Shown piece after piece: positions 1,992-6,220 of a stretch of 13,235 nt of DNA. The stretch's first letter is position 1; every line of letters begins with the position of its first letter. Below the pieces are notes generated by a model. The model was not told where the DNA came from. It searched no databases and saw nothing but the letters and a program-made list of their open reading frames with translations. Position numbers and translations under genes: made by a program. The DNA lies in the NCBI GenBank assembly GCA_030621995.1, contig JAUXGP010000019.1:1-13235 (forward strand), written 5' to 3'. The DNA comes from Psychrilyobacter sp. GTDB lineage: Bacteria; Fusobacteriota; Fusobacteriia; Fusobacteriales; Fusobacteriaceae.

Positions 1992-2939
1992 TTATTTCTC
2001 CATTGGCATAGTTTTATCGCCACTCCATTCATAGATAGAACCTTCATAGTTTTTTACATTTTCAAAGCCCCCGGCTCTGAGGATCATAGTTGCATAACCT
2101 GATCTTATTCCCATAGTTCAGTAAAGAGTAAAATCATCTTTTTTAGAAATACCCATTTCACCCATTATCTCTTCTATTTCTTTTGGAGTCTTTAAAGTCC
2201 CGTTTTTATTCAATAAATCTGTCCAAACAAGATGTTTTGCCCCTTTTATATGACCGCCTCTGGGCTCTCCTGCCTTTTGAGATCCATCAAATTCTTTTTT
2301 AGTTCTTACATCGATAATCATTTTTTTGTCTAAATCTTTAAAAACTTCGTCCTTTGTTATCATAAAACTTCTGTCATAATCTTTTAAAGTCACACCAGTA
2401 CTGGGTGTTGGTTTAACTGTAACATCCTTTGTCATCTCATAGCCAAGTTCTTTCCAATAACTGGATCCCCCATGAAGAATTTTAACATTTTTCATTCCTG
2501 CTAATATTAATTGCCAAGCTGTACGTCCATCTGCACCAGGACCTTTAAATAAATCTGAGTAAAGTACCACTGTTTTTTCATTATCTATTCCCAATGAAAT
2601 AAGTTTTTCAGTTAACTCTTCCTTTGATTTTATAGTCCCCCAACCTGGATCTCCTGGTTTTCCGACTTTTTCTGAAAAAGCATGGAATCCAATTCCAATT
2701 GCTCCTTCTATATGCTCTTTAGCATATAAATTAGGGTTATTACAGTCTAACAATATTAATTTCTCCGATCCTAACAATGACTTAAGCTCCTCAGGACTAA
2801 TAAAATAATCTCCTTTTTCATATACCGATAAATCTATTTTTTTTTCTTTATCGGTCGATGTTTTATTACAACTGCTAAATAAAATAAATGTCAATACACA
2901 TAAAATAAGTAGTCCTGATTTGATGTAGTTTTTCTTCAT
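1992..2939 (-). CDS. Probable selenocysteine-containing two-domain rhodanese (sulfurtransferase) lipoprotein; internal TGA at 2118-2120 read as Sec
   Basis: A predicted sulfurtransferase, moving sulfane sulfur (or selenium) through an active-site chalcogen on the outside of the membrane. Residues 1-24 form a lipoprotein signal (lysines, hydrophobic core, LFSSC lipobox, Cys24). Rhodanese domain 1 is about residues 44-170 and looks non-catalytic, with Ser-Asp (YSD, 128-129) where the loop cysteine would be. Domain 2, about 190-310, carries IIDVR (208-212). Its active-site loop reads TLY-TGA-TMGIRSGYA, so codon 274 (TGA) replaces the catalytic cysteine. The frame continues as typical rhodanese C-terminus (LRAGGFENVKNYEGS, YEWSGD) to TAA at 1992-1994, giving 315 residues. 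A SECIS-like stem-loop follows the TGA, and the terminator abuts the TAA. The start ATG has AGGAGG upstream. The gene sits 15 bp after the VTT gene in the same operon. The alternative is a nonsense mutation or sequencing error, which would kill the active site; exact placement at the catalytic residue favours selenocysteine. The substrate is unknown. Confidence 0.87.
2082..2120 (-). promoter_or_regulatory. Candidate bacterial SECIS element, including the UGA codon
   Basis: On the minus strand, TGA (2120-2118) is followed by 13 nt and then GATCA (2104-2100). A 13-nt loop starting GG comes next, then TGATC (2086-2082). The inner part can also pair (GGTT with AACT, one G-U), giving a longer stem with a 4-nt loop ATGC and a bulged A. 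The apical loop lies about 18-22 nt after the UGA, inside the window usual for bacterial SECIS elements. A G in the first two loop positions fits the common bacterial pattern in the open-loop fold. This was folded by eye only. SelB would be the expected binding protein; its gene is not in this window. Confidence 0.6.
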
Positions 2940-2954: not shown

Positions 2955-3668
2955 TTAATTTATATCATTTAAATCTATTATATCTTTTGATTGTTTCTTA
3001 TCATTCCAAACCTTTTTAAATAAAAATATTAATGTACTTATTGCAAATAATATAAGTAATCCCACTACTATTGTTTTGGTTGTTCCTGTTAACATACTTC
3101 CAATATATGAATAAATTATCGTTGCTGGCAGCTGCCCTATACCAGTTGCAACAAAAAAGCTGAAGAAACTCATAGAAGTTAATCCTGCAGCATAACTGAC
3201 AATGTCAAAAGAAATAAACGGCAGCAAACGTGCTATCAATATTGTATATTTTCCATATCTATCAAAAAAATCATCTACACTATCCAATGCATATCTACCG
3301 GTTAATTTTATCACAATCGTTCTTCCGTAAAACTTCGCTATAAAGAAACAAAGTGCTGCTCCTGCCATAGAACTTGTCCAAGAAAGAAGTGCTCCTTTTA
3401 CCCAGCCAAATAAACCAGCATTTGCAAAGGTTATTATAAAGGCAGGAAGAGGTGCGGCTATGGATTGCAGAACCATCAATAAAAATGATACAACCGGTGC
3501 CCATATTCCAAATCCCAAAATATACCCTCTTGCCAAATCAACATCTACATTTTTAAGAATAAAAATCGCTTGATTGACATTTATTTTAATTGCTGGGATT
3601 AAAAAATATAATCCTACTATGACTATCAGAACTCCTATTTTTAGTATCTTATCTTTTCTATTTTTCAA
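2955..3668 (-). CDS. TVP38/TMEM64 family (VTT/SNARE-associated domain) membrane protein, TTG start
   Basis: An integral membrane protein of the DedA-related VTT superfamily (E. coli YdjX/YdjZ type), 237 residues. Members are thought to move lipids or small solutes, but the substrate of this branch is not settled. Visible features are an N-terminal membrane helix (about 9-28), a second at about 50-70, and the VTT core at about 72-195. The core contains APLPAFIITFANAGLFG, the FYGR element, LIARLLPFISFDIVSYAAGLTSM and GIGQLPATIIYSYIG. A last helix (about 200-218) and a charged tail follow. The start is TTG at 3668-3666, chosen because GGAGG (3681-3677) lies 8 nt upstream and no ATG or GTG fits. 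It is the first gene of the operon, with the rhodanese gene 15 bp downstream. In E. coli, ydjX and ydjZ lie close to the sulfurtransferase gene ynjE, a known parallel that suggests a functional link. Confidence 0.88.
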   Translation of the reverse strand: MKNRKDKILKIGVLIVIVGLYFLIPAIKINVNQAIFILKNVDVDLARGYILGFGIWAPVVSFLLMVLQSIAAPLPAFIITFANAGLFGWVKGALLSWTSSMAGAALCFFIAKFYGRTIVIKLTGRYALDSVDDFFDRYGKYTILIARLLPFISFDIVSYAAGLTSMSFFSFFVATGIGQLPATIIYSYIGSMLTGTTKTIVVGLLILFAISTLIFLFKKVWNDKKQSKDIIDLNDIN

Positions 3669-3941: not shown

Positions 3942-4295
3942 CTAATCAAACTCTTTAAAAGCAATTATTTTTTTATTTTTTAACAGCCTTATAAACATAA
4001 ACACTCTTTCCTGCATAGATTCGTAGGCATCTTCCTCTTCCTCTAGAAGAATGTTGATAATATCATAGACTGTATTTTTTCCATCGATATTTTCCCAGAC
4101 TACACTCCCAAGCCCATCCAATTCCAAGGTACTGGTACTGCTTTTTTTAGTCATCCATCTCAAAACCTTCTGCAGGAGACTGTCATGGGTAAAAACAAGA
4201 TGGATATTTCCACCTTGTTTTTTATAATCTAAGTGAAGTTTTACTGGTACAACATCTAGAAAATTTTCTTGTTTTTTTTCACTTTTATTTTTCAT
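3942..4295 (-). CDS. Small PqqD-like protein downstream of OPT transporter
   Basis: A 117-residue protein resembling the PqqD family, small domains that bind peptide substrates for radical SAM modifying enzymes. The family-like part is about residues 55-117: LELDGLGSVVWENIDGKNTVYDIINIL matches the usual pattern of a short strand, a hydrophobic residue followed by tryptophan, Asp-Gly, and a winged-helix-like run. A helical C-terminus follows (QERVFMFIRLLKNKKII). The first 55 residues are lysine-rich and polar. Its ATG lies 8 bp after the OPT stop, so the two genes are co-transcribed and probably translationally linked; only a weak GGTTGAG precedes it. No radical SAM enzyme or precursor peptide is in the window. 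The role is unknown; a soluble partner of the transporter is one inference. Confidence 0.72.
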   Translation of the reverse strand: MKNKSEKKQENFLDVVPVKLHLDYKKQGGNIHLVFTHDSLLQKVLRWMTKKSSTSTLELDGLGSVVWENIDGKNTVYDIINILLEEEEDAYESMQERVFMFIRLLKNKKIIAFKEFD

Positions 4296-4303
4296 ATCTC
4301 AAC

Positions 4304-6220
4304 CTATTCCGGTAATTCTTCATCTGAAGCTTTTCCAGAAATAACTTGACCAAAGATCCAAGCAGCTAAAGCTATGAAAATTGCAAATCCTATAGTAGAA
4401 TTCTGTGTAATAGCTCCGAATTTAGCTCCGAATGCTGATAAGTCTTTTCCGAAAGTAATGAATACCGCTATTAAGATACCGATTAAAGCATCTCCAGCTA
4501 CTAAACCTGAACATAAAAGAATTCCCTTTTCAACTCTTCCTTTTTGCTCTTTAACATCTGCCTTAAATCTTTTCTCAACAAATTTTCTTACCAAAGCTCC
4601 AGTTAAGATAGCTGATGATAATTGAATTGGTAAGTATAATCCTAAAGCAATCGGTAAGATAGGTAATCCTAATAGATCAATCAATATACCGATAACCACA
4701 CCAATGATAACCAATGTCCAAGGGATCTCTCCTGTCATAACACCTTCAGATAACATTCTCATCAATCCTGCTTGAGGAGCAGGAACGTCTGCCGAACCTA
4801 ATCCGAAAGCTTTATGCAGCATAAGTACTACTCCACCTGCTGCAAATGCTGCTACGACTAATCCAGCGAACATTGACCACTCGATTTTCTTTGGTGTTCC
4901 ACCAACTAAGTATGTATGCTTTAAACTTTGTGCTACTCCACCAGATGTTGCGATCGATACACAAACTACACCTGCTGCGATAATAGCCATAATTTTTCCT
5001 AATTCAGGATCTACACCAGATAGTTTTATAACCGATGCAATCACTAATAATGATGCAATAGTCATTCCAGATACAGGGTTATTAGATGCACCCATGATTC
5101 CTGTCATTCTTGCAGATACTACACCGAAGAAGAATGAGAAGAATATTACTAAGAACGATACCAAAATTCCTACTTTGGGAATTCCTGTTGATAATGGTAA
5201 TAACCATACGATTAAAAATACTGCGATAGCTCCTGCTCCAACATATGTTAATGGAGTATCAATGTGTTGTCTTTCAATTTTATGAGCAGATTTTTCTGCT
5301 TTTAACCCTTTCATAGCTTCTTTGAAAGATCCAATGATAGCTGGTGCTGATTTAGCCAATGAGATAAATCCACCTGCTGCTACCGCTCCTGCTCCTATAT
5401 ATCTGATGTAGTTAGACCATATAGCAATTGGTGACATATCAGATATTAATTCAGTTGCCGGGAAGATAGGTGCTGTCGCTCCTGCTCCTATAAACTTAAT
5501 TAACGGTATGAAACCAAACCATGCCAATAATGCTCCTGAGAACATTAAGATAGCTACTCCGGTTCCTACGATAAATCCTACTCCTAATAATGAAGCTACT
5601 GCACTGAATCCAAAAGCTGTTCCTAACTTAGCTATAACCCAAGTCGGTCCCTCTGCCCAAAGTCCTAATCCACCAGATAGAAATTTAAAAGCTCCACCCA
5701 TTCCTAAACCTTTCAATACAGTTTTAAATCCTTCTCCACCCTTGTTGGCATTTACTAAGATCTCATAAGCTGCTACTGATTCAGGAAACAATAATACTCC
5801 ATGTTCCTCGACTATTAGATATTCTCTAAATGGAATAACAAATAAAGTCCCGATTAATCCACCTAAGATAGTTATAATAGCTATAGAAACCATACTTAAA
5901 TCATGACCCCATATGATAATAGCCGGTAGTGTAAAGATAACTCCACCTGCGATAGATTCTCCTACTGCGGCTACTGAAGCTACTAAGTTAGCTTCTAATA
6001 TAGAATTTTTTCTAAATACAGCCTTTAATAATCCTGTTCCTAAAATTGCTGCTGGAATTGCTGCTGCAATTGTTATTCCTGTCTTTAATCCTAAATATAC
6101 ATTTGATGCTGCAAATATTACTGCAAATAATATACCTAATCCAACAGAAACAACTGTAGTTTCAGACATAACTGTATCCATAGATACAAAAGGTTTAAAC
6201 TGATGCTTTTTCTCGTTCAT
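4304..6220 (-). CDS. OPT family oligopeptide transporter
   Basis: A polytopic inner-membrane transporter of 638 residues, the usual size for bacterial OPT proteins, with roughly 14-16 hydrophobic segments. The family signature is near the N-terminus (about residues 40-61: NVYLGLKTGITIAAAIPAAI). Further conserved stretches are GGVIFTLPAIIIWG, the LFPESVAAYEIL block, SARMTGIMGASNNPVSGMTIASL, and SGGVAQSLKHTYLVGGTPKK in the second half. OPT proteins are generally proton-driven and move peptides or metal-chelator conjugates; the substrate here cannot be told. The start ATG (6220-6218) has AAGGAGG with good spacing. It is the first gene of a two-gene operon with the PqqD-like gene. Family assignment is secure. 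Confidence 0.93.
   Translation of the reverse strand: MNEKKHQFKPFVSMDTVMSETTVVSVGLGILFAVIFAASNVYLGLKTGITIAAAIPAAILGTGLLKAVFRKNSILEANLVASVAAVGESIAGGVIFTLPAIIIWGHDLSMVSIAIITILGGLIGTLFVIPFREYLIVEEHGVLLFPESVAAYEILVNANKGGEGFKTVLKGLGMGGAFKFLSGGLGLWAEGPTWVIAKLGTAFGFSAVASLLGVGFIVGTGVAILMFSGALLAWFGFIPLIKFIGAGATAPIFPATELISDMSPIAIWSNYIRYIGAGAVAAGGFISLAKSAPAIIGSFKEAMKGLKAEKSAHKIERQHIDTPLTYVGAGAIAVFLIVWLLPLSTGIPKVGILVSFLVIFFSFFFGVVSARMTGIMGASNNPVSGMTIASLLVIASVIKLSGVDPELGKIMAIIAAGVVCVSIATSGGVAQSLKHTYLVGGTPKKIEWSMFAGLVVAAFAAGGVVLMLHKAFGLGSADVPAPQAGLMRMLSEGVMTGEIPWTLVIIGVVIGILIDLLGLPILPIALGLYLPIQLSSAILTGALVRKFVEKRFKADVKEQKGRVEKGILLCSGLVAGDALIGILIAVFITFGKDLSAFGAKFGAITQNSTIGFAIFIALAAWIFGQVISGKASDEELPE

Follow-up and report, generated by a model that had tools for sequence, protein, structure and literature searches.

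The gene on the minus strand at positions 1992–2939 of the window (the whole stretch of 13,235 nucleotides from a Psychrilyobacter sp. contig that was analyzed here) most likely encodes a selenoprotein, namely, an exported, lipid-anchored, two-domain rhodanese with selenocysteine (Sec) 274 as the predicted catalytic residue, whose UGA codon would be recoded with a hairpin in the coding sequence and which would transfer sulfane sulfur together with a YdjZ-type protein. We assign this complete reading a probability of roughly 0.87; its core component, insertion of Sec at the UGA, appears nearly certain from the sequence comparisons. The relevant features are the following:

1992–2939, minus strand: complete gene of the Sec rhodanese, encoding 315 aa, then TAA; preceded by an SD-like AGGAGG
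2118–2120, minus strand: TGA taken as the codon for selenocysteine (residue 274), at the catalytic position in the second rhodanese domain; motif Y-U-T-M-G-I-R-S-G-Y
2868–2939, minus strand: lipoprotein signal peptide with lipobox FSSC and hydrophobic N-terminus; lipidated Cys24 expected
2062–2080, minus strand: SECIS-like hairpin, columns 41–59 from the T of the TGA; 8-bp stem and 3-nt loop G-G/U-N
2082–2104, minus strand: small upstream helix GATC/GATC, columns 17–20 with 36–39; 97.8% of cells paired
2955–3668, minus strand: YdjZ (DedA/VTT) homolog, 237 aa, PF09335, 15 bases before (upstream of) the Sec gene

In-frame TGA at the catalytic position of a rhodanese

When the TGA is read as Sec, the minus-strand frame 1992–2939 yields 315 residues with a single TGA, at residue 274, which is followed by 41 sense codons and a TAA; under translation table 11, the product stops at 273 aa. 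The initial annotation described the 41 codons as a rhodanese C-terminus, and this description holds: the sequence behind the TGA is rhodanese sequence because the PF00581 score drops from 114.7 bits for the whole protein to 79.5 bits when the protein is cut at 273. The same annotation placed the TGA at the position of the catalytic Cys of the second rhodanese domain and expected Cys there in homologs. Both points were confirmed: the TGA codon aligns with the Cys of the solved (Mycobacterium) thiosulfate sulfurtransferases, and Cys also occupies this position in one database homolog inside the Sec clade (P0017) and in a separate clade of Cys paralogs. An in-frame UGA aligned with a functional Cys of homologs is the pattern expected of a bacterial selenoprotein.

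Automatic annotation cuts the protein at residue 273, as had been anticipated from the sequence. Among the best 120 of the 173 protein matches, which include the entry for the window itself (P0002) and a protein identical to it, encoded on a different contig and with the same end point (P0003), 116 end exactly one residue before the Sec codon, so that the active site is absent from the annotation. Thus, more than 100 of these database entries stop just short of the catalytic residue; they include named sulfurtransferases of Psychrilyobacter, Tepidibacter hydrothermalis and Peptoclostridium acidaminophilum. Among the same 120, one entry has an irregular end (P0045), one contains Cys at the Sec position (P0017), and two metagenome proteins (P0026 and P0031) contain W.

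The two proteins with W fit a gene caller that used another code and, at face value, would be compatible with a reassignment of UGA in the organism, for example, to Trp. However, TAA, TAG and TGA all terminate genes in the host genome, where a Tmk-like gene, selA and selB stop at TGA; furthermore, there is a single TGA per rhodanese gene, always the catalytic codon, and selA and selB are present. A change of the code was rejected given that TGA is still a stop in the host genome, and the probability of reassignment is close to nil.

Conservation of the TGA codon in two phyla

Close orthologs (84–100% identity) were detected in 6 of the 41 genomes searched (the host and 40 relatives), with exactly one TGA in all 6. 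A wider search for the family found the same 6 carriers among 61 genomes, 5 of them in the host genus (the host included) and one in another genus. A scan of named genomes produced 7 loci: the TGA is present in 6, from Romboutsia, two Peptostreptococcaceae, two Desulfosporosinus and a Fusobacteriaceae locus repeating L007, and the seventh, from Facklamia, is a Cys paralog. Matches were found in 17 of 393 genomes of the Romboutsia order, at 19 places (one TGA in 18, a Cys paralog in 1), and in 4 of 82 genomes of the Desulfosporosinus class (the TGA in three, and one copy, L108, broken before the Sec codon). In a sample of 391 genomes from across the class, 6 places matched at E ≤ 1e-45, that is, 1 Sec locus, in the genome at the center of the sample, and 5 Cys paralogs.

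At E ≤ 1e-70, the TGA is found at the same codon in 27 of the 29 places (26 genomes) in Fusobacteriota and Bacillota, the other two being the Cys paralog L104 and the broken copy L108. The 27 include L061, with a frameshift in the N-terminal part, and L103, cut by the sequence end, both with the Sec codon and tail intact; besides L104 and L108, repeats of the same genes (L002, L058, L081, L100, L102, L106 and L107) were placed outside the 27. Each of the 27 Sec loci has one TGA and a TAA or TAG end; the motif is UTMGIRSGY in 26 and UTMGMRSGY in 1, and invariant residues behind the Sec codon are present across the loci. Thus, the UGA and the frame downstream are kept in other species, as expected for a selenoprotein. 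The only Cys or Sec positions conserved throughout are the lipobox Cys (25 of 25 complete N-termini) and the Sec codon (27 of 27).

These observations bear on the simplest alternative, that the TGA is a nonsense mutation that ends a truncated pseudogene or, else, a functional 273-aa protein. Standard annotation agrees with that interpretation, given the end point of 116 of the best 120 homologs (out of 173); moreover, L108 is truly broken before the codon, and L061 is frameshifted in its N-terminal part. Nevertheless, all 27 Sec-codon loci, from two phyla, retain an intact and conserved tail with no second stop, its invariant residues persist, and Cys is found at the same place in P0017 and the paralogs. 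The initial annotation had considered a chance nonsense mutation unlikely and had pointed to scattered further stops in the tail as the expected trace of decay; the 27 of 29 close matches that keep the TGA with an intact tail bear out the former, and none of these 27 contains such stops, the one broken copy, L108, being interrupted before the codon. A recent nonsense mutation is ruled out by the conservation of codon and tail, so that truncation in any form is highly improbable. An assembly error was likewise rejected because the same TGA is found in independent genomes; its recurrence in two phyla supports the reading of the TGA as Sec.

In a phylogenetic tree of 81 rows (25 Sec loci, that is, all of the 27 except L061 and L103; 42 of the 120 homologs, comprising 39 truncated sequences, 2 with W and 1 with Cys; and 14 Cys paralogs; Sec entered as Cys), the Sec family forms one branch with 100/100 support and the Cys paralogs, with the motif C-T-A/K/G-G-I-R-S-A or similar, fall on the other side. 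The Cys-containing P0017 lies within the Sec branch, on a long branch of its own, so that its exact place is unsure. Because the sole Cys member is inside the fully supported Sec branch, Sec looks ancestral in this family and Cys appears to be the exception. This is unusual compared with the Sargasso selenoproteins, most of which had many Cys homologs (PMC1088965).

Two other loci deserve mention. L108 (genome G829, of the Desulfosporosinus class) carries a copy of the gene that is broken ahead of the Sec codon, despite the presence of selB in this genome. In a relative of the host (G004:C80:17315-18049), there is a distant rhodanese-like frame of 463 aa with 26% identity and one in-frame TGA, which could be either a second Sec rhodanese or a pseudogene.

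A constrained hairpin behind the TGA

Among the 272 windows of 15 codons along the gene, the lowest synonymous variation is in the one that starts at +8 after the Sec codon, that is, +8 to +22. Codons +1 to +20 have a mean entropy of 0.70, compared with 1.16 outside this stretch, and none of 20,000 amino-acid-matched draws gave so low a value; these statistics ignore kinship, which is equal inside and outside the region. The constrained segment covers the SECIS-like hairpin: 97.3% of the cells in columns 41–48 with 52–59 are paired, compared to 25–55% when the pairing is slid by 1–3 columns. Compensation is limited to one two-sided change (A-U to G-C, in L101) and some one-sided changes, and the loop-closing pair is lost in 4 of 23 distinct rows. 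The covariation is weak support for the hairpin because 23 of 500 shuffles reach the observed score and there is a single two-sided change.

The apical loop contains the expected G and lies 45 nt from the UGA, beyond the usual range; most bacterial SECIS elements are found 16–37 nt from the UGA according to a 2026 review. The small helix formed by columns 17–20 with 36–39 may bring the hairpin nearer to the UGA and might be a part of the same RNA element. The Rfam scan of the window at gathering thresholds returned tRNA only.

Selenium machinery in the carriers

SelB delivers Sec-tRNA to UGA codons of this kind. The initial annotation tied the Sec reading to the presence of selA, selB, selC and selD in the genome, and this stands in part. 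The host draft genome (76% complete, 311 contigs) encodes, on contig C243, a complete selB and a selA cut by the contig edge, next to genes that resemble yedF and DUF3343; neither selC (tRNA-Sec) nor selD was found above the cut-off in this 76% complete draft. In the five other Fusobacteriaceae carriers, selA, selB, selC and selD are all above the cut-off. Across the 41 genomes, selB is above the cut-off in 16, and all 6 carriers are among these (P = 0.0018, uncorrected for kinship). In Bacillota, all 21 genomes that carry the gene (including the one with the broken copy) have selB, as do 16 of 19 without it; because selB is common there regardless of the gene, this co-occurrence is uninformative.

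Additional indications come from selD, which contains one in-frame TGA in 14 of the 16 Fusobacteriaceae genomes with SelD above the cut-off; SelD is probably a selenoprotein as well in those 14, pointing to the use of Sec decoding by Fusobacteriaceae. A separate case is G016, where selD is above the cut-off and has no TGA, and selA, selB and selC are below it, that is, SelD is an orphan.

In two carriers (G006 and G007), the gene lies on one contig between selC (16–18 kb away) and selD-selA-selB (25 kb away), so that selC, the Sec-rhodanese gene and selD-selA-selB fit inside about 50 kb (G006:C1 and G007:C3). Such a tie to the selenium machinery is what would be expected if the protein were a selenium carrier, its selenol holding reduced selenium as a perselenide for selenium capture rather than for sulfur transfer; furthermore, a DedA protein has reportedly been linked to selenite resistance (Ledgham 2005, going by the title as cited). 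Against this possibility, the sel genes are on separate contigs in the other carriers of the family (G002, G005 and G020), the nearest common neighbors by clustering are YdjZ genes, not sel genes, and the scaffold is that of an ordinary two-domain sulfurtransferase. A role as a selenium carrier, accordingly, seems improbable.

Fold, lipid anchor and predicted reaction

The protein contains two PF00581 domains with the active site in the second one, the arrangement of two-domain sulfurtransferases; it departs from the two-domain rhodaneses in lacking the catalytic Cys, and because a Sec codon replaces this Cys, we classify the protein as a Sec variant of rhodanese. The AlphaFold2 model (Cys for Sec, 24 sequences) has a pLDDT of 88.4 and a pTM of 0.84. 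Its best match in PDB is the thiosulfate sulfurtransferase 3aay_A (28% identity; TM-score of 0.76 normalized by the query and 0.88 by the target), and the matches that follow the thiosulfate sulfurtransferases are mercaptopyruvate sulfurtransferases and YnjE. At the position of the catalytic Cys, the first domain has, as read by eye, the sequence LYSD, with Ser and no Cys, so this domain looks inactive.

The lipoprotein signal noted in the initial annotation is corroborated by the lipobox FSSC (Cys24), with a lipobox Cys present, by pattern, in all 25 loci with a complete N-terminus (the starts were partly chosen by the lipobox). Lipoproteins are exported and lipidated on the lipobox Cys, and rhodaneses carry a persulfide on the catalytic Cys. 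The selenopersulfide chemistry outside the membrane that had been suggested for the Sec protein is plausible, and we favor sulfur transfer, with moderate confidence, as its reaction.

The main competing idea is that the protein is a selenoprotein but functions as a thiol/peroxide or metalloid reductase on the rhodanese scaffold, not as a sulfurtransferase. Reviews expect redox roles for most uncharacterized selenoproteins; genes of the ArsR, ArsP_1 and Thioredoxin_3 types are located just upstream at three loci, and 8 of 19 loci have a member of a CCG-domain Fe-S protein family no more than about 5 kb away. On the other hand, besides the lipobox Cys, there is no conserved resolving Cys, and the nearest solved structures are thiosulfate sulfurtransferases. 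The length of the catalytic loop also argues for a sulfurtransferase: as a rule, this loop consists of six residues in rhodaneses and is longer in Cdc25 and arsenate reductases, and the loop here, U-T-M-G-I-R, has six. We therefore regard a reductase as unlikely, if less so than a selenium carrier.

Pairing with YdjZ-type genes and gene neighborhoods

The product of the gene at 2955–3668 aligns with E. coli YdjZ over 231 residues at 55% identity. Of the 24 loci for which 1 kb or more of upstream sequence is available, 21, from both phyla, have a strong YdjZ-type homolog upstream of the Sec gene; it is not directly upstream in L056, L061 and L101, the last of which has a more distant VTT gene further upstream. 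At L091, L092, L095, L097 and L098, a VTT gene is upstream in all five cases. From this pairing, we consider it fairly probable that the Sec rhodanese works directly with YdjZ.

The YdjZ pair is all that the window itself offers in this respect, and the same holds for most of the other loci. Surroundings of the YnjB/YnjF type were found in 4 of the 19 neighborhoods compared (L112, L063, L064 and L066). The genes in L112 (Bacillota) encode, in this order, a second VTT protein, a YdjZ-like protein, the Sec-rhodanese, a CCG-domain protein, a YnjF-like protein (a CDP-alcohol phosphatidyltransferase), a YnjB-like binding protein (216 bits), an ABC permease and an ABC ATPase. L063 (Fusobacteriota) has genes for a YnjB-like (192 bits) and a YnjF-like protein and for two permeases; by clustering, L064 has the same set, and L066 has a YnjB-like protein and two permeases. 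The permeases are only weakly similar to YnjC (at most 31 bits, with none listed for L112). A rhodanese-rhodanese-VTT fusion was detected by Pfam near the gene in L063, with homologs in L064 and L066; in L063 and L066, the VTT part of the fusion resembles YdjX more than YdjZ.

In E. coli K-12, ydjX-ydjY-ydjZ-ynjA-ynjB-ynjC-ynjD-ynjE are consecutive, with ynjF next; ydjXYZ-ynjABCD and ynjE are activated by FNR (PMC3688515). Given that YnjB- and YnjF-like genes are found at a few loci in both phyla, the Sec lipoprotein stands in the place of YnjE. Like the Sec protein, YnjE is a rhodanese with a signal-peptide-like N-terminus (by eye) near YdjZ; it differs in having Cys (FYCGTG), is annotated as a molybdopterin synthase sulfurtransferase and reaches only 72 bits in comparison with the Sec protein. 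YnjE has three rhodanese domains. With two PF00581 stretches and the score of 72 bits, the Sec protein is not a member of the YnjE family; only the gene context is alike.

Several other features of the neighborhoods were observed. In L109, L111 and L115, the VTT and Sec-rhodanese genes are preceded by genes for ArsR, an ArsP_1 permease and Thioredoxin_3 and followed by another VTT gene (the families were scanned in L109 and assigned by clustering in L111 and L115). The family of CCG-domain Fe-S proteins that occurs close to the Sec gene at 8 of 19 loci is represented in L063 (11614–12759) by a protein that scores 297 of 530 bits, below the cut-off, with NF045663, 'diclust_near_Sec'. Elsewhere in the window (3942–6220), an OPT-family transporter gene is followed, after 8 bases, by a gene for a PqqD-like protein of 117 aa, which is an unusual combination.

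The mechanism that we propose is as follows. The UGA would be recoded by SelB and tRNA-Sec, aided by the hairpin in the coding sequence behind it, and the product would be exported and lipid-anchored via Cys24. The selenol of Sec274 would then take a sulfane sulfur from thiosulfate, polysulfide or a similar donor, forming a selenosulfide, and, in cooperation with the YdjZ-type membrane protein, the sulfur would be handed to an extracytoplasmic acceptor. Incorporation of Sec, the donor, the acceptor and the coupling to YdjZ are the parts of this scheme that we infer, starting from features read directly in the sequences, that is, the Sec codon and its conservation, the constraint on the hairpin, the lipobox and the YdjZ pairing.

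Relationship with known selenoproteins and implications

The presence of Sec in rhodanese-like proteins has been predicted since 2005 (PMC1088965, PMC2398784, PMC9312934, PMC13188914, PMC5029168). The rhodanese-like selenoproteins are divided into five forms, 1–5, with UxxG in forms 2 and 4 (PMC13188914, Table 1); the Sargasso rhodanese selenoprotein is assigned to COG2897 (SseA) in the 2022 review; a 2008 listing includes a selenoprotein 'Sulfurtransferase COG2897'; and a 'sulfurtransferase homologous to a rhodanese-like protein' reported in 2016 accounts for 25 selenoproteins in 24 organisms. These predicted proteins share with the one described here the Sec in a rhodanese domain, and U-T-M-G fits the UxxG of forms 2 and 4. 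Compared by description, the Sec lipoprotein may be the same as form 2, form 4 (MBM9537886.1 and MCY3690685.1 for these two), the 2008 COG2897 protein or the 2016 type.

The word lipoprotein is absent from the main texts of the 2022 and 2026 reviews, and the literature searched, which was partly accessible and whose scope leaves aside Haft and Gwadz 2023 and Haft and Tolstoy 2025, mentioned neither a lipoprotein form nor a pairing with YdjZ nor a rhodanese selenoprotein of Fusobacteriota. No NCBIfam model matches at the cut-off: of the two models for seleno-rhodaneses, NF041203 gives 45.7 of 115 bits for P0001, and NF045694 (TsoB) gives at most 37.1 of 805 bits among four proteins, with no listed match for P0001. 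Within the literature searched, as accessible, what appears new is the near-obligate Sec, the lipid anchoring and the pairing with YdjZ, Sec rhodaneses themselves having already been predicted.

The thiosulfate and 3-mercaptopyruvate sulfurtransferases (3aay, 3hwi, 1uar, 1urh and bovine rhodanese) have the same two rhodanese domains with the active site in the second one; in contrast to these enzymes, to which identity is about 28%, the protein described here has Sec for Cys, the loop U-T-M-G-I-R and a lipid anchor. Rhodanese fusions of COG0586 DedA proteins have been noted, with the link called unclear, in a 2023 paper (PMC10127716). Those fusions are single chains, whereas the Sec protein and the YdjZ-type protein are encoded by separate genes.

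We tentatively propose, as a possibility that is still less likely to be right than wrong, that these proteins constitute an unrecognized, nearly Sec-only family of membrane-anchored sulfurtransferases that, together with YdjZ and, at some loci, a YnjB-type importer and a YnjF-type lipid enzyme, would form an extracytoplasmic relay for sulfur or selenium. The accessible part of the literature searched states no joint function for the ydjX-ynjF genes of E. coli. If such a relay exists, the Sec chemistry would reveal the role of these orphan, FNR-activated ydjX-ynjF genes of E. coli. The pairing with YdjZ offers a handle on this subfamily of DedA proteins, on the ydjX-ynjF genes of E. coli and on the link between rhodaneses and DedA proteins.
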